Shown: positions 8,646 to 53,639 of the stretch, one piece after another
Layout of the letters: the number at the start of each line of letters is the position of its first letter
How positions within the stretch are numbered: position 1 is the first letter of the stretch
Assembly (NCBI GenBank): GCA_016793865.1
Contig: JAEULJ010000007.1
Location: forward strand, 582,797 to 646,796
Length of the DNA: 64,000 bases
DNA from: Altererythrobacter sp.
GTDB taxonomy: Bacteria > Pseudomonadota > Alphaproteobacteria > Sphingomonadales > Sphingomonadaceae
Direction of reading: 5' to 3'
The notes under the pieces: model-generated
The model's database searches: none
Told to the model about the DNA's origin: nothing
The model's input: only the letters and a program-made list of their open reading frames with translations
Program-made: the position numbers and the translations under genes

Positions 8646-8662
8646 TTACCTCGCCGTTAACC
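8646..8662 (+). promoter_or_regulatory. CtrA-like box upstream of the Tad pilus genes
   Basis: TTAC-N7-TTAACC, one mismatch from the alphaproteobacterial CtrA consensus TTAA-N7-TTAAC. It lies 71 nt before the tadG-like start and in the 98-nt divergent spacer. Tad/Flp pilus genes are CtrA targets in Caulobacter, so the context fits. Confidence 0.5.
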
Positions 8663-8732
8663 AACGTTCTGAAACCTTTGTAGGTTATACCAGCGCTATC
8701 GGCGTCGGATAAGCGCTTTGCGAGCAAGCATC

Positions 8733-10859
8733 ATGGCATTATTCAAGAGGAACTCCAGCGTCGTGGACGGCAATCGCCGGAGGGGCTTCCTCCGCCGCTT
8801 GTGCCGTGACACGGCCGGCAACACCCTCGCGATCGTCGGCGCCGCCCTGATCCCGCTGACCGCCATGATCGGCTCCGGAATCGACGTCAGCCGCGCCTAC
8901 ATGGCCAAGAGCCGCCTGCAAAGCGCTTGCGACGCCGCGTCGCTCGCCGCCCGCCGCGTAATGCGCAACGATTCGTTGACCGCCGACGTCATGGCGACCG
9001 GCGAGCGCTTCTTTTCGTTCAACTTTCCGGCGGGGCTCTACCAGACCGAGGCATTCTCGCCCGAGATCACCCGCCCTGAGGTAGGCATCGTTCGCATCGA
9101 CGCGGCGACCCGCATTCCGACGGCGGTGATGAAGCTTTTCGGCTTCGGCACCCTGCCGCTCAGTGTAAGCTGCGAGGCCTCGCTCAACTTCGTGAACACC
9201 GATGTGGTGCTCGTCCTGGACGTCACCGGCTCGATGATGAACGACGTCAACGACAACGCGACGAACGTTGACGCCAACCGCAAGATCACCGCCCTTCAAG
9301 ACGCCGTGATGGCACTCTACGACGAGCTCGCCCCGATCCAGGCTCAGTTGGAATCGCAAGGCCTGCGCTTGCGCTATGGCATCGTGCCCTATTCGAACAC
9401 GGTGAACGTGGGTCGCTTGCTGCAAGCCCAGAACAGCGACTTCATCCGTGCGAGCACGCCGTATCAATCGCGGGTCGCGATCTACAACACCACGCCCGCC
9501 ACCGAGACGGTATCGATCACCAGCCCCGAGACCGGCCTTCTAGCCAGCCCCGGTGTGGAGCGGTTTCGCGTCAGTGGCGTCGACCGGCAGATTACGAACG
9601 CAAATTGCGCCAATTTTGGCAGCAACACCGCCTTCAGCCAGGGTGGCACATCACCAGTTGGCGGTTCGTACGCCTCTGTCGGCGTGAGCAACGACGCGGA
9701 CTTCTACGATCCCGATGGACCTGCAGGACCGCAGGCCAATGAGCCAGCGGCACCCACCGGCTATGTGCGGTACCAGTTCTCGCGCAGGACGGCGAGCTGG
9801 ACCAACAATCCCACCAACCGCGTTTGTGAGCGCAACGTCACGATCACCAAGCGGACCTACCCCTATTCCTTCAGTCAGTGGCAGTATCGCGAGGAGCAGC
9901 TCGACACCTCCAGCTTTGCCGGCGGCGGGGCCATCACCCTGGCAACAACCGCGCCCGGAACGCTGCCGACCGGCGGAGGGGTCTATGACATGCAAGAGCT
10001 GGTCGGCGTAGGCGGCGGCGGACTGCAGACGGTCACCTGGAACGGGTGCATCGAGGAGCGGGACACCGTCTCCACCATCAATGGAGGCTCGAGCCTTACG
10101 ATCCCGAGCGGCGCGACCGATCTCGATCTCAATTTCATCCCCAACAGCGAGGCGACCCGCTGGCGCCCCATGCTTGCCCAGGCGACTTATCAGCGCACGG
10201 CGGGCAATGGCGCCACGACTCCGGGCGGGGGAGCCAGCACCAACAACAACTGGATGCCGAGCCTCTACACGCCCTCGCAAGGCTATTACGCCTGCCCCAC
10301 GGAAGCGCGTCGCCTCCAGACCTGGGCTCGCGACGACCAGGGCGGGGTGCAGGGGCTGAGCGGCTATGTTCGAAGCCTGGCCCCGGTGGGCGGCACCTAT
10401 CACGACATCGGGATGATATGGGGCGGACGGCTGATCTCGACCGGCGGCCCCTTCGCCGACGCGTGCGAGGAATTCAACGGCATGCCCTGCAACCGGCACG
10501 TGATCTTCATGACCGACGGCCAGCAGACCGCCTATTGCAACGTCTACACGGCATACGGGCCGGAACGTAACGCGCTCCGGGTCAAGAACGCGAACAACTG
10601 CACGTCGGACGCACAGGGCGACGCCAACACCGCCGATCTTCTCAATCGTCACCGCCAGCGCTTCCAGATGGCGTGCAACGCAACCAAGAACATGAATACC
10701 TCGGTGTGGGTCATTGCATTCGGAACCTCGCTCAGCACTCCGCTCACGCAATGCGCCACCAACGCGAGCCAGGCATCGACATCCGCCAACCGCGAACAGC
10801 TTATCAGTCGCTTCCGCCAGATCGGAAACCAGATCGGCGCGTTGAGGCTGACCAATTGA
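8733..10859 (+). CDS. TadG-like Tad pilus protein with von Willebrand A domain
   Basis: The 708-residue protein has a TadE/TadG-type N-terminus: a membrane helix (about 30-50, AIVGAALIPLTAMIGSGIDV) followed by SRAYMAKSRLQSACDAASLAA. A vWA domain follows, with the MIDAS motif DVTGSM (163-168), expected to bind a divalent metal, and a later VIFMTDGQQTAYC segment. A long Ser/Thr/Gly/Asn-rich insert (about 260-530) separates the two halves of the vWA domain. Expected to be anchored in the inner membrane and exposed to periplasm or pilus base. ATG 8733 is preferred over TTG 8718. First of three translationally linked genes. Confidence 0.85.
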   Translation: MALFKRNSSVVDGNRRRGFLRRLCRDTAGNTLAIVGAALIPLTAMIGSGIDVSRAYMAKSRLQSACDAASLAARRVMRNDSLTADVMATGERFFSFNFPAGLYQTEAFSPEITRPEVGIVRIDAATRIPTAVMKLFGFGTLPLSVSCEASLNFVNTDVVLVLDVTGSMMNDVNDNATNVDANRKITALQDAVMALYDELAPIQAQLESQGLRLRYGIVPYSNTVNVGRLLQAQNSDFIRASTPYQSRVAIYNTTPATETVSITSPETGLLASPGVERFRVSGVDRQITNANCANFGSNTAFSQGGTSPVGGSYASVGVSNDADFYDPDGPAGPQANEPAAPTGYVRYQFSRRTASWTNNPTNRVCERNVTITKRTYPYSFSQWQYREEQLDTSSFAGGGAITLATTAPGTLPTGGGVYDMQELVGVGGGGLQTVTWNGCIEERDTVSTINGGSSLTIPSGATDLDLNFIPNSEATRWRPMLAQATYQRTAGNGATTPGGGASTNNNWMPSLYTPSQGYYACPTEARRLQTWARDDQGGVQGLSGYVRSLAPVGGTYHDIGMIWGGRLISTGGPFADACEEFNGMPCNRHVIFMTDGQQTAYCNVYTAYGPERNALRVKNANNCTSDAQGDANTADLLNRHRQRFQMACNATKNMNTSVWVIAFGTSLSTPLTQCATNASQASTSANREQLISRFRQIGNQIGALRLTN

Positions 10860-45497: not shown

Positions 45498-46790
45498 ATG
45501 GCCGACAGCAACGCCAACGCCACGCTCGATATCAACGGCAAGACCGTGCGCTATCCGGTCCTGAAGGGAAGCACCGGACCGGACGTGGTCGATATCCGCA
45601 AGCTGTTCGGCGACACCGGCACCTTCACCTACGATCCCGGCTACAAATCCACCGCGAGCTGCGAGAGCGCCCTCACCTATATCGACGGCGACGAGGGCAT
45701 TCTGCTCCATCGCGGCTATCCCATCGGCCAGCTCGCCGAGCATTCCAGCTTCATGGAGGTGTGCTACCTCCTCCTCAACGGCGAACTGCCCAAGCAGACC
45801 GAGCTGGACGACTTCACCCGCACCATCACCCGCCACACCATGCTGCACGAGCAGCTCGCGACCTTCTACCGCGGTTTCCGGCGCGATGCGCACCCGATGG
45901 CCATCATGTGCGGCGTGGTAGGTGCGCTGAGCGCCTTCTACCACGACAGCACGGACATCTCGGACCCCGAGCACCGCAAGATCAGCAGCCACCGGCTGAT
46001 CGCCAAGATGCCCACGATCGCGGCGATGGCGTACAAATATTCGGTGGGGCAGCCCTTCCTCTACCCCAAGAACGAGCTGTCCTACACCGCCAACTTCATG
46101 CGCATGACCTTCGGCGTGCCGGCGGAGGAATACGAGCTGCACCCGGCGGTCGAGAAGGCGATGGACCGCATCTTCATCCTCCACGCCGACCATGAACAGA
46201 ACGCCTCCACCTCTACGGTGCGGCTGGCCGGTTCCTCGGGCGCGAACCCCTTCGCCTGCATCGCGGCGGGCATAGCCTGCCTGTGGGGCCCGGCGCACGG
46301 GGGCGCCAACGAGGCGGCGCTGAACATGCTCCAGGAGATCGGGACACCCGACAGGATTCCGCACTATATCGAGCGTGCCAAGGACAAGAACGATCCGTTC
46401 CGCCTGATGGGTTTCGGCCACCGGGTGTACAAGAACTACGATCCGCGCGCGGCGGTGATGCAGAAGACCGTGCGCGAGGTGTTCGATGCACTCAAGGTCA
46501 AGGATCCCGTGTTCGAGACCGCCCTGCGGCTCGAGGAACTCGCCCTCAGCGACGACTACTTCAAGGAAAAGAAGCTGTTCCCCAACGTCGATTTCTATTC
46601 GGGCATCATCCTGTCGGCGATCGGCTTCCCCACCACCATGTTCACGGCGCTGTTCGCGCTTGCGCGCACCGTTGGCTGGGTGGCGCAGTGGAACGAGATG
46701 ATTTCCGATCCCGCGCAGGTGATCGGCCGCCCGCGCCAGCTCTACACCGGCCCCACCGAGCGCGACTATGTGCCCATGGCCAAGCGCTGA
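45498..46790 (+). CDS. gltA: Citrate synthase (type II, hexameric)
   Basis: 430 residues; condenses acetyl-CoA and oxaloacetate. Seen: N-terminal beta domain typical of Gram-negative NADH-sensitive enzymes ([20 protein letters not shown] is split here), [20 protein letters not shown] with catalytic His, [26 protein letters not shown] with catalytic His/Arg, and a conserved catalytic Asp in PNVDFYSG. Starts 14 nt after gltX and is probably co-transcribed. Confidence 0.98.
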
Positions 46791-46802: not shown

Positions 46803-46997
46803 ATGATTGCCCGCGTGCTGCTGGTCATCGGGCTCCTGATGGTCGCGGCGGGCGCGCTATGGGCGCTCCAGGGGGCCGGAATCGTGATGTGGCCGGCCGA
46901 AAGCTTCATGCTGCGCCGGGAGGGCTGGATCACCTATGGCCTGGGCACCATGCTGGCGGGCGTGTTCCTGATCGGATGGGCGCGCCGGCGGCGCTGA
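46803..46997 (+). CDS. Small two-helix membrane protein
   Basis: 64 residues with two membrane helices (about 3-22 and 44-60) joined by a short loop IVMWPAESFMLRREGW, ending in RRRR. It lies 12 nt after gltA and ends directly at the stop of the convergent kinase-like gene (46998). Similar short proteins sit behind gltA in sphingomonads; function unknown. Confidence 0.7.
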   Translation: MIARVLLVIGLLMVAAGALWALQGAGIVMWPAESFMLRREGWITYGLGTMLAGVFLIGWARRRR

Positions 46998-48371
46998 TCA
47001 ATCCACCGCCGACAGCGTAAGGGTGAAGCGCGCGCCCTGTCCGGGGGCGCTCTCGACCGTGAGATCGCCCTCCATCGCGCGGGCCAGGCGCCGTCCGATA
47101 TGCAGACCCAGCCCGCTGCCGCCGTCACCACTGCGGCCCAGCCGCTCGAACTTGTCGAACACCCGCGCCTGCTCAGCCGCATTGAGGCCGCGCCCCTGGT
47201 CGGCCACCGTCACCCGCGCGCGATACCCGTCGCGATCGAGCCTGATCCACACCTGGCTGTCCTCGGGCGAATAGGCGATCGCATTGCCGATGAGGTTGAT
47301 GAGGATTTGCAGCACGCGGCGGAACTCGCCCCGCGCCCACAGGCTTTCCCCCGGCACGGGGGGCACCAGCACGATGCCGCGCCCCTGAGCGCGCACACCC
47401 AGGATGCCGCAGGCCTGCCGCGCCGCCTCGCCCAGATCGATCCGCACCAGTGCGACCGTGAAGTCGGGGGCATCCACCCCTTCGAGATCCGCGATGTCCT
47501 CGATCAGCGCCAGCAGATGCTGGCCGGCGTCGATCATGTCCCCGGCATAGCCCGCGTAGATATCGGCGACAGGTCCGGCCAGTCGCGAACGGATCGCTTC
47601 GGCCTGGGTGATGACGCGGTCGATCGGTTCGCGCAGTGCGGGTGCAAGCTCCTCGCCTAGCGAGGGAATGGCCGATGAGGCGGCAGGCGCGGTCCTGTCC
47701 ACTTCCGGCGCGGCCTGCTCGGAGGCAAGGGTCAGCACGAAGCCGTCGCTGCCCGGCTCGGGCATGCCGAGAGGATCGAGCCAGGCGGTCCAGCGACGCG
47801 CCGAGCCCGCCACCTCGCACGCCGCGCCATCGAGAAGGCGCCAGTGAAGAGGCTGCCCTTCGATGGCACCCGGCAGCGTGACGAAATCGGTCCAGGGGCG
47901 ACCCACTCCGGCGGCCATGTCGGCGGCCAGTTCCGCCATGTCGGCGGCATCGCTGGCGGCGGTGAGGACGCCCTGGTTGCGGTCCAGCCGTGCGGAGAAT
48001 TCGGGCAGCGCACGGTCCAGCTCGCGCCGTACCCGGGCAAGTTGCTGCTCCTCCTCGCCACGTTGCACGGCCTCTGCGCGCCAGCTCGCAATCCCCAGGA
48101 GACAGCCGCCGCCACCGGCATAGTCGGGGATCGCCTCGATCCAGCCGCTGATCCGCTCCTCGCGCCCCAGCGCATTGAACGAACGCGACATACGCAGGCC
48201 CAGCTCCACCGCGCGCGTAGCAATGTTGCGCAGCTCCGGGATGGCGAGCGTGCCGCCGATCTCCCCGCCGTTCTCCCTCTGGAGGGTCGCCAGCGGCTCG
48301 TCAGCCTCGACCAGCCGCCCCTCGCGGTCGACGCGGCCCGTCGCCAGATATGGCACAGAAGCCTGGCTCAC
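46998..48371 (-). CDS. PleC/DivJ/DivL-like histidine kinase homologue without the phospho-accepting histidine
   Basis: 457 residues from GTG 48371, which overlaps the upstream stop by 4 nt (GTGA). A PAS-like N-terminal half without membrane helices is followed by a dimerisation helix ALREPIDRVITQAEAI and AGYAGDMIDAGQHLLALIED, clearly of the PleC/DivJ/PdhS type, but Pro244 occupies the H-box histidine position. The ATPase domain is intact: N-box NLIGNAIAYSP (359-369), G1 DQGRGL (391-396), F-box VFDKFERLG, G2 SGLGLHIG (419-426). It therefore probably binds ATP but cannot autophosphorylate in the usual way; DivL of Caulobacter is a known precedent for an altered H-box. Confidence 0.8.
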   Translation of the reverse strand: MSQASVPYLATGRVDREGRLVEADEPLATLQRENGGEIGGTLAIPELRNIATRAVELGLRMSRSFNALGREERISGWIEAIPDYAGGGGCLLGIASWRAEAVQRGEEEQQLARVRRELDRALPEFSARLDRNQGVLTAASDAADMAELAADMAAGVGRPWTDFVTLPGAIEGQPLHWRLLDGAACEVAGSARRWTAWLDPLGMPEPGSDGFVLTLASEQAAPEVDRTAPAASSAIPSLGEELAPALREPIDRVITQAEAIRSRLAGPVADIYAGYAGDMIDAGQHLLALIEDIADLEGVDAPDFTVALVRIDLGEAARQACGILGVRAQGRGIVLVPPVPGESLWARGEFRRVLQILINLIGNAIAYSPEDSQVWIRLDRDGYRARVTVADQGRGLNAAEQARVFDKFERLGRSGDGGSGLGLHIGRRLARAMEGDLTVESAPGQGARFTLTLSAVD

Positions 48372-49282
48372 CGGCGCGCCTCCGCAAGCCATTGCGCCGC
48401 CTCTCGAGTGCCGACATCGTGAAGACCACGCGGCAGTTGTGCATCGGGGCGGATCATCAGCGCCTGGCGCTCAGCCTCGGCGGGCGCGGCGCCGGCGGCG
48501 CGCAGTGCCAGCATCAGCCGGCCAAGCTCCCTGTCGCTGGCGGCGAAGATCGTCCGCTCGCGCGTCTCGCCCGTGCGGATGGCAAGGACGCTGAGCCACA
48601 GCGCGACCCCTGCCTCCTCCACGGCCAGCGCCGCGCCGCCGAGCAGATCGCCGGTCTCGCCCGCCAGCCGGCCAAGCAAGGCGAGGCGGCCGGAGCCTTC
48701 CTCGTAATCGCGGCGCAATCTTGCCTCGCGCCCTTCGGGCTCGCCGGGCAAGGCATTCCGCAGGATCAGCAGCGCGGCATGGAACAGCTCCGCCGGAAGC
48801 TCCCCGAGCGGGAGGGCCATGCGTCGCTGCGCCTGCGCGAACCGCGCCTGCGCCCCGAGCGCCGCCATGGCCAGGGCGCTGGTCTCCGCCGGGATGCCGG
48901 CCACCAGCGACTGGATCAGCGGGGAAAGCACCGGATCGAGCGCGCGCTCGGCCTCCAGGCCCAGCGCGAGCCGCCATTCGAGCGCCAGCGCGTGGCAGTG
49001 GTCGCGCAATGCCTCGCTCTCCGCCAGCCGGGCCGCAAGGGCGGCGCTTGTCGCGGTGTCGACCTCCCGGCCGTCCGTCGCCAGGAGCTGGCGGGACAGA
49101 TCCGCCAGCATTCCGCCGACCTGCGCCACGACCGCCTCGCCCAGCAGGCTGTGATCCTCGACGGCGAGCAGGCGGTGCAACGCGGGTGAGCTGCGGGCAT
49201 GGAGCCGGTCGCCCCGTGCCATCGCGGCGCGCAGCGGGTGGTCGGCGGGTTCCGCCTGACTGGGTGCGCGAGGGCCGCTCAT
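48368..49282 (-). CDS. Unrecognised all-helical cytoplasmic protein
   Basis: 304 residues from ATG 49282; a longer start at 49300 would run into the CtrA-like box. I do not recognise a family. It is Ala/Leu/Arg-rich, predicted almost entirely alpha-helical, with no signal peptide, membrane helix or cysteine-rich motif. Weakly repetitive helical-pair segments (LPLGELPAELFHAALLILR; GRLALLGRLAGETGDLLGG) suggest a scaffold. Its stop overlaps the start of the kinase-like gene (GTGA), so the two are translated together, and a CtrA-like box lies about 24 nt upstream. Confidence 0.7.
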   Translation of the reverse strand: MSGPRAPSQAEPADHPLRAAMARGDRLHARSSPALHRLLAVEDHSLLGEAVVAQVGGMLADLSRQLLATDGREVDTATSAALAARLAESEALRDHCHALALEWRLALGLEAERALDPVLSPLIQSLVAGIPAETSALAMAALGAQARFAQAQRRMALPLGELPAELFHAALLILRNALPGEPEGREARLRRDYEEGSGRLALLGRLAGETGDLLGGAALAVEEAGVALWLSVLAIRTGETRERTIFAASDRELGRLMLALRAAGAAPAEAERQALMIRPDAQLPRGLHDVGTREAAQWLAEARR

Positions 49283-49305
49283 CCGTTCCAGCACTACCAC
49301 CGCAC

Positions 49306-49322
49306 GGTTAATCGCCCGTTAG
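49306..49322 (-). promoter_or_regulatory. CtrA-like box overlapping the stop codon of the upstream gene
   Basis: Read on the minus strand: CTAA-CGGGCGA-TTAACC, one mismatch from TTAA-N7-TTAAC. It lies 24 nt before the ATG of the 304-residue gene and includes the TAA stop of the preceding gene, so it would give the distal pair its own promoter. Confidence 0.45.
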
Positions 49323-50543
49323 CCGCGCTGGCCGGGCCGTGTGGACCCACAGCAACGCGGCAAGGGCCACGAGCATCAGCGCAGCCACGCCGGGCAAGGC
49401 CCAGCCCGTCGTCGCCAGCGCGATCAGCAGCGCGATCATCGGGATGCGATCGCCCAGGAACGTAAGCAGCTCGGCGCCGCGCACATCTTCGCTATCGGCC
49501 TCACACAGCCGCGCGAGGCCGACCAGCAAGCCCCCCAGCACCGCGCCGAGCCAGCCCGGCACCGTTACCAGCAGTTGCGCCAGGAGGGCCACCAGCACCG
49601 CGTCACCCAGCCATCCGGCGATGGCAAGCGCCCGCCCCGGGGCGGGCCGCGCAGCGCCAACCGCCTCGACCCGGTCGAAGATGGCCGCAACGACACGCGC
49701 GGCGGCGAAGGCGAGGAGGAACACCAGTCCCACCACCGGCCACCGCGTCAGCGCGGCCACCAGCGCCAACGCCAGCGCCACGCAGGCGGTGACATGCGGC
49801 GCTCTGCCCCATCGCCCGCCGCCAGCGTCATGCGCCCAGCGCAAGCCCATGCGTTCCGCCAGCGCGGTACCGATCGCCGCGAAGGATGCCGGCCGCACCT
49901 GTCGTGTCAGCCAGCGTCGCTCGCTCTCACCTCCGCCTTGCCGACTCACCCGCCGCTGCCAGGTGCTCTCCTCGACGGGAAGGGGATCGAGCTCGATCAC
50001 CCGCGCGCCGGATTGCAGCGCGATCCGCAGCAGAGCGGAAGCGGGATCGGAATCCGATGGAAGATCGGCGAGCCGCGCCACGCAATCGCCGCGCGTGCGA
50101 AGCATTCCGCTCCATGCCCGGGTCGCATCAATCCGCTCGAAACCCATCGCGAGGGCTGGTTCCTCGGGGAAGGCAAGCACGCCGGGCTGGCGTGCGAGCG
50201 CCGAAACCGCCGCAGCGGCATCCGGCAGCACGCCATCGGAGATCACCAGAACGTCGTCGTCCGCTGTGACCAGCGCGGCCAGTCGCGAAAGCGAATCCAC
50301 GATGTCGAAGCGCAGCCCGGCCCGCTCGGCATAGGCCTTGGAGGCACCCAGGTCGGGGCCGAGCCGCGACGCCATGCACAGCACACGTTCGCAGCCGAGC
50401 CGCGCGGCACAGTCGATCTGGTGGGAAAGCACGCTCTTGCCGGCGAAACGACGGAACGCCGGCCGTTCACCGGCAGCGATACCCTGACCCGCGCTGTCGG
50501 GCCCCGGAGCCTCGGCAAGAGCGGAAAGCAGGGCGAGGCGCAA
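49308..50543 (-). CDS. Nucleotidyltransferase-like domain fused to a membrane domain resembling a decayed CDP-alcohol phosphotransferase
   Basis: About 411 residues. The N-terminal half (about 20-190) looks like a GT-A nucleotidyltransferase: a basic FRRFAGKSVLSHQID segment, a CERVLCMA strand and a DVLVISDGVLPDA acidic loop. The C-terminal half (about 235-400) has about five membrane helices; the place where CDP-alcohol transferases carry DGxxAR...GxxxDxxxD reads FDRVEAVGAAR...GWLGDAV. The order resembles archaeal IPCT/DIPPS fusions, but key residues are missing. The start is weak: TTG 50543 without clear Shine-Dalgarno. Function unknown. Confidence 0.55.
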   Translation of the reverse strand: MRLALLSALAEAPGPDSAGQGIAAGERPAFRRFAGKSVLSHQIDCAARLGCERVLCMASRLGPDLGASKAYAERAGLRFDIVDSLSRLAALVTADDDVLVISDGVLPDAAAAVSALARQPGVLAFPEEPALAMGFERIDATRAWSGMLRTRGDCVARLADLPSDSDPASALLRIALQSGARVIELDPLPVEESTWQRRVSRQGGGESERRWLTRQVRPASFAAIGTALAERMGLRWAHDAGGGRWGRAPHVTACVALALALVAALTRWPVVGLVFLLAFAAARVVAAIFDRVEAVGAARPAPGRALAIAGWLGDAVLVALLAQLLVTVPGWLGAVLGGLLVGLARLCEADSEDVRGAELLTFLGDRIPMIALLIALATTGWALPGVAALMLVALAALLWVHTARPARLTGD

Positions 50544-50626
50544 AGGGCGGTCCGAACGTGGCTCTGGCGGTGGGACAGCGCATGGCTTTAGTCCCTTGCG
50601 CGCGCCCGAATAAGGCCGCCTGGCTG

Positions 50627-50938
50627 TCAGACCGAGATCTGTCCCCCGATTTCGTCGATATGGGCGCCCATGCGCCGGACGGCGAAGGGATCACCCGGGG
50701 CGCCAGCCAGCGCGTCCCTGGCGAGCGCTTCGAGTTCCTGATCGTGAAAGCTGGCCGCGATGCCCTGGAGCCGTGCCGCCGCCATCCGCCAGTTCGCATC
50801 GCACCGCGAGCGGCGCAGCAGGTCGATCTGGCGCGACGCGCTTTCGAGATAGGCGAGCCGCAGTTCTGCGAACAGCGCGAAGTCCTCGCCCGCTGCGGCC
50901 GCTAGCGCGGTCTCGAATGATCCGGATTCGTAAGCCAT
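50627..50938 (-). CDS. Hpt-like helical protein without the phospho-accepting histidine
   Basis: 103 residues. The segment WRMAAARLQGIAASFHDQELEALARDA is split from a histidine phosphotransfer (Hpt) four-helix pattern: the family signature H-R-L-K-G appears as Ala55-Arg-Leu-Gln-Gly59, so the phospho-histidine is alanine, followed by the normal AAS and ELEALAR helix. It would be a binding-only Hpt relative. First gene of the leftward set, immediately divergent from the TipN-like gene across a CtrA box; a GATTC (CcrM) site lies at its 5' end. Confidence 0.6.
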   Translation of the reverse strand: MAYESGSFETALAAAAGEDFALFAELRLAYLESASRQIDLLRRSRCDANWRMAAARLQGIAASFHDQELEALARDALAGAPGDPFAVRRMGAHIDEIGGQISV

Positions 50939-50958
50939 CGTCCCCGGCCTAGGCCCAA

Positions 50959-50981
50959 AGGGTTAAAGCGGGTTTAACCCT
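50959..50981. promoter_or_regulatory. Full CtrA box inside a 9-bp inverted repeat between divergent genes
   Basis: TTAA-AGCGGGT-TTAAC (50963-50978) matches the CtrA consensus TTAA-N7-TTAAC exactly. It is embedded in the perfect inverted repeat AGGGTTAAA-GCGGG-TTTAACCCT (50959-50981), so the site reads similarly on both strands and can serve both divergent genes. It is centred 27 nt from the rightward ATG and 32 nt from the leftward ATG. Confidence 0.75.
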
Positions 50982-50996
50982 GCTTGCGGTCATTGT

Positions 50997-53639
50997 ATGA
51001 ACACCCGCATGAGCAAGGGCAGGCATATCCGCGCGATCGGCAGCGACACGGCGGACGGGGGAACGGGCGAGACCGTGGAGACGGTCGAGCTTGAGGCATC
51101 TCAGGCGGAGGAGGAGCCCACAGCCTGGGATGACACATTCGAAGAGCCAGTCACTGCGGGCCGGCGGCTCTGGCCGGTTCTCCTCGGCGCGCTCGCAGTC
51201 GCTGCGGTTGCCGCATGGACGGGATTCTTCGCCTGGGCGAATCGCGCCGCGATGCTTTCCGGAGCCGCGCCGGGGCAGTGGATCGAATGGGCGATGCAAT
51301 GGGCCGTCCCGGTGCTGCTGGTTGCCGTTGCCTGGCTGATCGCGATGCGCAGCTCGCTGCGGGAGGCCGGCCGTTTCGGCGATGCGGCACGGCTGCTGGC
51401 ACAGGAATCGACGGCGCTGGAGGCGCGGCTTGCCGGGGTGAACCGCGAGCTGAGCCTGGCGCGCGAGTTCCTCGGCGCGCAGACGCGGGAACTGGACTAT
51501 CTGGGCCGCTCCGCCGCGGAGCGCATCTCGGAACACGCGGGCCGGCTCCAGACGCTGGTGGTGGACAATGGCGCACAAGTGGATGCCATCGCCGGGGTCA
51601 GCCAGACAGCGCTCGCCAACATGGCGGAGCTACGCGACAATTTGCCCGTGATCGCCGCCTCCGCGCGCGACGTCAGCAACCAGATCGGCAGCGCGGGACG
51701 GGGCGCGACGACACAGCTCAACGAGCTGGTCGCCGGCTTCGAGCGGCTCAATGAATTCGGCCAGGCAAGCGAGCGGCAGGTCGTCTCCCTTCAACAACGG
51801 ATCGATGGCGCGCTCGGCGATCTGGGCAGCCTCGCGCAGCGCATGGATGCTGACAACGCCGCCCGCCTCGAGACGCTGCAGGCGGCGAGCACTTCGCTCC
51901 GCGCCGATCTGGAGGAGCGCGAAACCCAGGTGCTCGACGCGATCCGCCAACGCGGCGAAGCGTTGCGGGCCGAGCTGGTGGCCGCGCACGACGCGCGCCA
52001 GCTCGAGGAAGCCGCCGCGCTCGCCGCGATGCGTGGGCGGATCGGCGCCTTCACGCAGGAGGCACACGAAGCCGGCGCAGCCGTGCGCGCGGGGGAACGC
52101 AGTGCCCTGGAGGCGTGGGAAGGCCAGGTCGCCGATCTGCGCGCTCGGCTGGAAACCGCGATTGACGAGGTGGGGACGCTCGACCGCAACGCGCTCGAGC
52201 AGGCTCGCGGCAAGCTCGCGGCGCTCTCCGCCGAGGCAGAGGCGGTCGACCGCGGGCTTGGCGAACGCGACCGGGCGTTCAACGAACGCGTTGCCGCGCG
52301 CGAAAGCGAGCTGGAGGCGAGCGAGGCGGCAGCCTTCGCCCGCATGGCCGCCCGTGCCGAGGCGCTGGACAAGGAATTGGCAACGCGGCGCGACGCCCAG
52401 CTCGCCCATGCCGATGCGCTCGCGCAGCGTGGCGAAGCGCTCGCGGCCCGACTGGGGGAGATCGACACGCAACTCGGCGCGGTATCGGAACGCGGCGAAA
52501 CGGCCGAGCGCGTGCTCGCCGGCAGCGCGGAAAGCTTCGCCGCGACGGTGACCGCCAACGCGGATCAGCTCAGTGATGCGGAGGCGGCGGTTTCCCGCCT
52601 GACCGATGCCAGCGTGCGCCTGCTTGAACTCATCCAGGCGGCGGCCACGCACAGCCGCAGCGAACTTCCCGCGGCCATCGAAGGGTTCGAGGAACGCCTC
52701 GGGAGCGCGCGTGACAGCAGCGGGGCGATCCGCGCCGCGCTTCAGGACGCGCGTGAGCTGAGCGATGCCGTCTCCGCTTCGTTGGGCGAGATGAGGGGCG
52801 CCGGCGATGCCGCCATCGGGACGCTCGATTCCTTCGGCACGCGGCTCACGGGCACTGCCCAGGAACAGGCGACTACCTTGGCGGCACTGCGCGATCAGCT
52901 CGCGGCGGCCCATTCCGATAACCGCGCGCTGGCGGAAAGTATCGCGAGCGAGCTGTCCGCCGCCATCACCCGTCTGCGTGACAGCGGCAAGGCGCTGTTC
53001 TCGGACCTCGAAAGCAGCCAGAGCGCACAGGTTGCGGCGCTTGCCGGCCGTGTTGGCGAGGAAAGCGCCCAGACCATCGAGCGCGCCATAGGCGAGCGTA
53101 CGCAGGCCGCCCTCGCCCAGCTCGACGAGGCCACCGCCCGTTCGGCGGAGGCATCGAAGGAGGCGATCGCCAACCTGCGCGACCAGCTCGCGCGGGTGCA
53201 CGAGCTGACATCCAACCTGGAGAACCGCGCCGCGCGCGCGCGCGAGCAGGTGGAGGAACAGGTCGACAGCGATTTCTCGCGGCGGATGGCGCTCATCACC
53301 GAAAGCCTCAATTCGCACAGCATCGACATCGCCAAGGCGCTGTCGACGGAAGTTACCGACACAGCCTGGGCCGCCTATCTCAAGGGCGATCGCGGGGTGT
53401 TCACCCGCCGCGCGGTGCGGCTGGTCGATGGGGGCGAAGCGCGCGAGATTTCGACGCTCTTCGAGGCTGACCACGAATTCCGCGAGCATGTCAGCCGCTA
53501 CATCCACGATTTCGAGGCGATGCTGCGAACCATGCTTTCCACGCGAGACGGGCAGGCGCTGGGCGTCACCCTGCTCTCCAGCGACATGGGCAAGCTCTAT
53601 GTCGCTTTGGCGCAGGCCATCCAGCGGCTGCGCCAGTAA
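50997..53639 (+). CDS. Large coiled-coil inner-membrane protein, TipN-like architecture
   Basis: 880 residues: an acidic cytoplasmic N-terminus (1-55), two membrane helices (about 58-80 and 96-117), a very long Ala/Glu/Arg-rich coiled coil (about 120-760; repeated RxxELxAAxxAR-type heptads) and a conserved-looking globular C-terminus (about 765-880; STEVTDTAWAAYLKGDRG, ALGVTLLSSDMGKLYVALAQ). Size and topology match Caulobacter TipN (about 880 residues, two N-terminal helices, coiled coil), a polarity marker; sequence identity cannot be judged here. The alternative is a generic coiled-coil scaffold. A CtrA box sits 20 nt upstream of the ATG. Confidence 0.7.
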   Translation: MNTRMSKGRHIRAIGSDTADGGTGETVETVELEASQAEEEPTAWDDTFEEPVTAGRRLWPVLLGALAVAAVAAWTGFFAWANRAAMLSGAAPGQWIEWAMQWAVPVLLVAVAWLIAMRSSLREAGRFGDAARLLAQESTALEARLAGVNRELSLAREFLGAQTRELDYLGRSAAERISEHAGRLQTLVVDNGAQVDAIAGVSQTALANMAELRDNLPVIAASARDVSNQIGSAGRGATTQLNELVAGFERLNEFGQASERQVVSLQQRIDGALGDLGSLAQRMDADNAARLETLQAASTSLRADLEERETQVLDAIRQRGEALRAELVAAHDARQLEEAAALAAMRGRIGAFTQEAHEAGAAVRAGERSALEAWEGQVADLRARLETAIDEVGTLDRNALEQARGKLAALSAEAEAVDRGLGERDRAFNERVAARESELEASEAAAFARMAARAEALDKELATRRDAQLAHADALAQRGEALAARLGEIDTQLGAVSERGETAERVLAGSAESFAATVTANADQLSDAEAAVSRLTDASVRLLELIQAAATHSRSELPAAIEGFEERLGSARDSSGAIRAALQDARELSDAVSASLGEMRGAGDAAIGTLDSFGTRLTGTAQEQATTLAALRDQLAAAHSDNRALAESIASELSAAITRLRDSGKALFSDLESSQSAQVAALAGRVGEESAQTIERAIGERTQAALAQLDEATARSAEASKEAIANLRDQLARVHELTSNLENRAARAREQVEEQVDSDFSRRMALITESLNSHSIDIAKALSTEVTDTAWAAYLKGDRGVFTRRAVRLVDGGEAREISTLFEADHEFREHVSRYIHDFEAMLRTMLSTRDGQALGVTLLSSDMGKLYVALAQAIQRLRQ

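Follow-up and report, generated by a model that had tools for sequence, protein, structure and literature searches.

A 64,000-nucleotide stretch of DNA from Altererythrobacter sp. (assembly GCA_016793865.1, contig JAEULJ010000007.1, positions 582,797 to 646,796; G000:C2:582797-646796 in our coordinates), here called the window, holds five adjacent genes that we consider to have about an even chance of forming an old CtrA-driven, non-catalytic, receiver-binding polarity/cell-cycle module of a sphingomonad family. We call the genes PHK (histidine-kinase-like), HEL (all-helical), NTR (a membrane protein), HPT (Hpt-like), and TIPN (TipN-like); the host genome is 2.56 Mb. An earlier note, made from the DNA letters alone, had described five adjacent open reading frames diverging around a full CtrA-type box, and all of them, together with the box, were found as described. 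The reading is carried by conserved synteny, two conserved boxes, a conserved loss of catalytic residues, an intact ATP site, a retained docking-helix sequence, and an architecture like that of TipN, supplemented by a remote domain match. We compared a same-genus set (20 loci fetched out of 24 relatives), a family set (60 loci picked from TIPN-bearing genomes of the family), and a named set (80 loci), the named relatives being Erythrobacter, Qipengyuania, Novosphingobium, and similar; the sets partly overlap in genomes.

PHK (46998..48392, minus strand, 464 aa) reads LAPALREP in its acceptor region, with Pro251 at the acceptor position, where active kinases read xHELRTP at the H box. Over 131 aligned PHK rows, the histidine column holds proline in 115, a gap in 2, and histidine in 1 (L130). 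The following residue, acidic in active kinases, is V or A in 123 rows, and the position of the HELRTP threonine is Q in 103. The ATP-binding part is intact, with a match to HATPase_c at 5e-25 (Pfam) and with the N, G1, and G2 box residues retained in 129 to 130 of the 131 rows. This retention speaks for a rival explanation in which PHK is still a kinase, its ATP domain phosphorylating a partner in trans (for example, the partner DHp in a heterodimer) while HPT only binds its target. We think that quite unlikely, given what has become of the two positions beyond the proline and given that retaining an ATP site does not establish kinase activity: DivL is a histidine kinase fold that senses DivK~P via its DHp docking face without kinase or phosphatase activity (PMC4211667). 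The docking-helix sequence is retained in PHK as well, LRQPIxRIIANAETIR being prominent in the consensus, and R254 is near-invariant at a spacing equal to that of DivL R553. R553 is required for DivK binding (PMC4211667), and from the spacing we infer that R254 may be its equivalent. The candidate identity of PHK as the DivL orthologue was rejected: a separate, Tyr-bearing DivL is encoded elsewhere in the genome, and PHK has Pro. Among the PDB matches of the PHK profile, DivL ranks only 11th. The earlier label of a PleC/DivJ/DivL-like kinase without its histidine is thus right about the missing histidine, next to an intact ATP site, but PHK is not DivL.

The second protein lacking its phospho-acceptor is HPT (50627..50938, minus strand), which reads AARLQG, with Ala55 in place of the phosphorylatable His, at the site where Hpt domains read HxLKG. 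A single one of the 119 aligned HPT rows (L137) has His at the acceptor site; L196, a second species of the same genus that lies outside the 119 rows, has GHRLKG, and both of these HPTs are recognized by Pfam as Hpt (2.4e-7 for L137, 3.6e-7 for L196). HPT has conserved residues of its own (over the 119 rows, C46 in 111, D47 in 114, W50 in 118, and F64 in 117) and carries its own conserved R-x-RCD-x-NW motif. In a quick tree search on 60 TIPN rows, with six outgroup rows serving as the root, the His state of HPT needs one change and the His-bearing genus falls in the basal group (support 93-94), in a topology where 19 of the 57 inner branches are weak and several branches are long. Missing catalytic residues in adjacent genes could in principle reflect recent decay, a local mutation, or an assembly error, and the earlier note had asked whether close relatives retain the active-site histidines. 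They do not, and conservation across relatives led us to reject this explanation, which we regard as next to impossible: the frames are open and have acquired new conserved residues over 131 PHK and 119 HPT rows, and the loss of the Hpt histidine is single and old. The pseudo-signalling character that the earlier note gave to these proteins is supported by the conserved loss of His in both.

The window HPT has no Pfam match. The top structural match of its model (pLDDT 91.1) is ShpA (PDB 2ooc; probability 0.99, TM 0.67, Foldseek E 0.35), and Foldseek gave no match of the model to the PDB with E below 0.001. With the HPT profile, the best match among PDB sequences (E of 0.094) is not an Hpt, and an Hpt entry follows at 0.11. 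Outside the family, 2 of 20 TipN-type loci (L214 and L216, of one genus) have, about 1 kb upstream, a divergent Hpt gene that reads HTLKG, and the Hpt of L214 matches Pfam Hpt at 2.1e-10. Because an intact-His Hpt gene stands near a TipN-type gene there, the association of Hpt with TipN may predate the loss of His in HPT.

The CtrA consensus is TTAA-N7-TTAA, with TTAACC as half-site. Box 1 (50962..50978), GTTAAAGCGGGTTTAAC, lies between the divergent HPT and TIPN; it is the only TTAA-N7-TTAA in the window, and the pattern was present in 0 of 100 shuffles. We scored the best match to the consensus in 260 bp around the TIPN start at 147 distinct loci and found 8/8 in 24 and 7/8 in 77, that is, at least 7/8 in 101. 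Downstream control segments gave 8/8 in 0 and 7/8 in 2 of 146, and base-shuffled segments gave 0.1% and 2.7%. At divergent HPT-TIPN loci, the form TTAA-N7-T[TA][TA][AC] is found at 105 of 117, in 100 cases at 23-27 bp from the ATG of HPT. Over the 75 bp preceding it, a count that has no control of its own, matches of at least 7/8 occur at 86 of 115 loci and of 6/8 at the other 29. TGGTAG/GCTA are presumably -10-like elements.

Box 2 (49307..49323, minus strand; GCTAACGGGCGATTAAC on the gene strand, CTAAC-N6-TTAACC) overlaps the NTR stop codon. The earlier note had claimed a second CtrA box, and this one does match the consensus with one mismatch and is widely conserved. In the region around the NTR stop at 121 distinct loci holding PHK, HEL, NTR, and TIPN, it scores at least 7/8 at 112, compared with 0 of 121 at the HEL stop, 0 of 119 at the PHK stop, and 4 of 605 random segments; the same score is reached at 13 of 16 distant loci where these four genes occur. 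The box has the consensus (C/A)TAAC-N6-TTAACCA. Measured against the NTR stop, its offset differs from locus to locus (-12 in 51, -1 in 35, and -26 in 11), and different halves of the box supply the stop codon, while its spacing from the HEL start is 23-25 bp at 85 of these 112 loci, 12 bp at 9, and scattered at the others. A coding coincidence at the NTR stop was therefore rejected, since the varying stop offset and the mostly fixed HEL distance point to constraint at the DNA level. In the window, box 2 lies 25 bp before ATG 49282 of HEL, as expected from those relatives, so this ATG is the probable start in preference to the upstream GTG 49300. Both boxes are conserved CtrA-type boxes at a promoter position and count as predicted sites; their conservation and position support the CtrA-type control proposed earlier.

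The genome encodes a CtrA that is 77% identical to the Caulobacter CtrA, a ChpT, and, judged by eye, a hybrid kinase resembling CckA (L325). The separate DivL lies at G000:C2:314130 (L318), reads SYEFRTP with Tyr at the acceptor position, and has DivL as its best PDB match (5.5e-30); its frame has 608 codons, and one TGA was noted within its ATPase-domain match. Read by eye, the region upstream of ctrA (L304) contains TTTA-N7-TTAA together with half-sites that overlap, a layout that autoregulation would lead one to expect. At 8646-8662 in the window, another CtrA-like site, TTACCTCGCCGTTAACC, stands upstream of a Tad-pilus gene (open reading frame 8718-10859, Pfam Tad 1e-12); pili are CtrA targets.

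A near-full-length PHK relative is present in all 25 same-genus genomes searched, the own genome included, and in 16 further genomes the best PHK matches are confined to the kinase part. At all 20 same-genus loci we found gltX, gltA, PHK, NTR, TIPN, an RNase J-type gene, and a coaX-type gene (labels from Pfam), with HEL at 19 and HPT at 12, tblastn and the family profile agreeing. Of 119 genomes sampled across the family, 117 have a TIPN relative and the other two are 66-67% complete. The complete five-gene set stands at 35 of the 60 family loci and at 63 of the 80 named loci, some of the remaining ones being short contigs; the neighborhood comparison that the earlier note had called for thus shows the gene set to be conserved in relatives.

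TIPN (50997..53639, plus strand) has transmembrane segments at 58-81 and 96-118 by hydropathy scan, followed by a long coiled coil and a conserved C-terminal domain; its start may instead be ATG 51009 (MSKGRH). Two transmembrane segments and a coil are the architecture expected of TipN. A class-wide sample of 289 genomes had the C-terminal domain in 104. In one family that we sampled more deeply, it matched below 1e-4 in 18 of 99 genomes; we take this family to be Caulobacteraceae, because the CtrA of two of its genomes, G477 and G538, is identical to the Caulobacter CtrA. G477 has a 936-aa frame with two transmembrane segments and a coil, in which the TIPN C-terminal domain matches at E 6.5e-8. 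Against PDB sequences, the best E value of this domain was 0.062. The earlier description of TIPN as TipN-like therefore stands on architecture and a remote domain match, but not on a match to a named TipN. In the open literature searched, no listed paper had TipN together with Sphingomonadales, and none of those shown bore on this module.

NTR (49308..50543, minus strand) had been called a nucleotidyltransferase-like membrane protein. The window NTR has no Pfam match, and support for a nucleotidyltransferase at the N terminus is weak (NTP_transf_3 at 0.0017, below cut-off). The membrane half is related to another kind of enzyme: among five positional NTR orthologues scanned, L129 (3.2e-10) and L140 (3.1e-8) match CDP-OH_P_transf and the other three do not, and an NTR homologue from another family of the order matches it at 4.5e-9. 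The NTR profile of the window's relatives, set against one built from L129, L140, and seven outgroup proteins, matches over 385 columns at 13% identity (probability 99.2, E 1.5e-19). Four outgroup-type homologues scanned also match inositol-phosphate transferase models (NF041135) in the C-terminal half, far below cut-offs. The CDP-alcohol phosphotransferase motif D..DG..AR is present in 2 of 137 NTRs and missing from that of the window. On these profile comparisons, NTR is a protein with a weakly nucleotidyltransferase-like N terminus and a decayed CDP-alcohol phosphotransferase membrane half, so that the first part of the earlier label keeps weak support and the membrane part is named anew. 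At L129 and L140, NTR orthologues that retain the phosphotransferase motif stand beside TIPN; they are possible intermediates between enzyme and pseudo-enzyme.

HEL (48368..49282, minus strand) is present as the all-helical protein announced earlier, and its identity can be refined. The window HEL has no Pfam match; its model is confident (pLDDT 91.9) and has no match in the PDB at E of 0.001 or less. Ten distant positional orthologues were scanned; 8 match DUF2336 (PF10098), with 6 exceeding the cut-off and the best at 4.2e-63. The HEL of L130 matches it at 3.4e-30, and those of L112 and L113 do not, so that outside the window 9 of 13 HEL orthologues match, 7 over the cut-off, and 4 have no match. 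L130 itself (genome G064) is a low-GC locus (0.417) that keeps PHK, HEL, NTR, and TIPN, and its HEL is a clear DUF2336 protein. Compared directly with this single sequence, the HEL profile gives a weak match (probability 10.2, E 0.003), and the link to DUF2336 is for that reason taken from the positional orthologues' own Pfam matches; by these, HEL probably belongs with DUF2336 as a diverged type. No paper on DUF2336 was found in the open literature searched.

Several observations weigh against the module. HPT is absent at 8 of the 20 same-genus loci, so the five proteins are not obligate partners, and at least one of the five genes is missing at 25 of the 60 family loci, some of which keep TIPN alone or NTR and TIPN. 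The one PHK with His at the aligned column, that of L130, has it in the non-canonical context DHSFKPS. Box 1 fades with distance, reaching 7/8 at only 3 of 29 distant loci (L112-L140). On the TipN side, 81 of the 99 genomes of the Caulobacter family have no match to the TIPN C-terminal domain below E 1e-4. In G538, the second genome with the identical CtrA, the best match is 0.34, and no TIPN relative was seen in 400 kb read at a guessed place of its 4.14-Mb genome. Five TIPN-type loci read in the Caulobacter family show no PHK, HEL, NTR, or HPT match nearby. The relationship of TIPN to TipN is thus a remote and tentative one. Lastly, TTAA-N7-TTAA occurs at 4 places genome-wide and so does a reversed control pattern; with no genome-wide enrichment, the case for the boxes rests on conservation and position.

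This lack of enrichment speaks for a rival in which the boxes are TTAA-type sites of some regulator that is not CtrA. We hold that to be very unlikely, as both boxes fit the CtrA consensus, which recurs in near form upstream of ctrA and before the Tad-pilus gene. A more serious rival is that the genes are neighboring CtrA targets with separate jobs, their synteny being due to shared promoters and tight packing. The loci where TIPN stands without the others, in this family and in other families, fit this, as do the shared divergent promoter of HPT and TIPN and the loss of HPT at same-genus loci where the rest remain. The HPT-less loci are L032, L036, L042, and L046-L050, and box 1 matches before TIPN there are still 6 to 8 of 8. 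Set against separate jobs are the co-conservation of all five genes at over half of the family loci and most of the named ones and the fact that HEL-PHK has its own conserved CtrA-type box in the same cluster; we see this rival as possible, with the chances leaning clearly against it.

In the module that we favor, active CtrA would drive transcription at two boxes, with box 1 serving the divergent HPT and TIPN and box 2 serving HEL-PHK. TIPN would act as a TipN-type membrane coiled-coil scaffold marking a pole. PHK, with an ATP-binding core and no phospho-acceptor, would use the conserved first helix of its DHp to dock a response-regulator receiver, in the way DivL binds DivK~P, and HPT, where present, would offer a second non-phosphorylatable receiver-docking surface. 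NTR might anchor the module at the membrane and HEL might link the parts. The module could then sense or sequester a component of the CtrA pathway (a DivK-like protein, CckA, or CtrA) at the pole, closing a CtrA feedback loop. CtrA binding, complex formation, polar location, the target, and the feedback with its sign are all postulated in this scheme. In Sphingomonadales, the DivJ-PleC-DivK system is described as degenerate or lost, with CckA-ChpT-CtrA kept (PMC2877005). This, with the precedents of DivL and Osp, makes a non-catalytic, TipN-centered module the most economical account.

Beside the cluster lies gltA (45498..46790, plus strand), encoding citrate synthase (Pfam 7.1e-139), a conserved neighbor that the sequence fetched for 47 of the 60 family loci includes. 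A small hydrophobic open reading frame (46803-46997) lies between gltA and PHK and has tblastn matches at 5 of the 20 same-genus loci. The citrate synthase CitA of Caulobacter is a moonlighting cell-cycle regulator that was studied in delta-tipN strains (PMC7083601). The adjacency of gltA is worth noting in this light; we claim no functional part for it in the module.

A bolder version of the same idea is that retired proteins were built into a replacement spatial input to CtrA where DivJ-PleC-DivK is degenerate or lost, with PHK, a second pseudo-kinase, and the pseudo-Hpt as a non-catalytic receiver-binding pair, a TipN-type scaffold, a membrane pseudo-enzyme, and CtrA feedback, possibly coupled to citrate synthase. 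We regard this as unlikely. With its two conserved CtrA-type promoters and three proteins that lack their catalytic residues, the cluster, present across the family, supplies a handful of candidate genes for polarity input to CtrA in bacteria of this kind. It is also a case in which adjacent signalling and membrane proteins have lost catalysis and were then retained.

Among known systems, DivL of Caulobacter resembles PHK in being a histidine kinase core that lacks a phospho-His and comes from a genome that also encodes CtrA and ChpT, whereas PHK has Pro rather than Tyr and a different locus, and its genome has a DivL of its own. Osp of Rhodobacter sphaeroides is a CtrA-activated, receiver-like protein that inhibits CckA by binding (PMC9430884). 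It shares with the module the combination of a signalling-type protein and CtrA control, here predicted, and offers a model for feedback by binding, but it is receiver-type, and none of PHK, HEL, NTR, HPT, and TIPN is. TipN of Caulobacter appears to be like TIPN in its two N-terminal transmembrane segments and coiled coil, and the C-terminal domain is matched in one Caulobacter-genus TipN-like protein; the match is remote, however, and the TIPN-type loci read in the Caulobacter family are without the rest of the module. Hpt proteins such as ShpA (PDB 2ooc) may share the predicted helical fold of HPT, which differs by having no phosphorylatable His and a motif of its own. The bifunctional inositol-phosphate cytidylyltransferase/CDP-inositol phosphotransferases (NF041135) are linked to NTR by profile matches via its outgroup homologues, while D..DG..AR is absent from 135 of the 137 NTRs.

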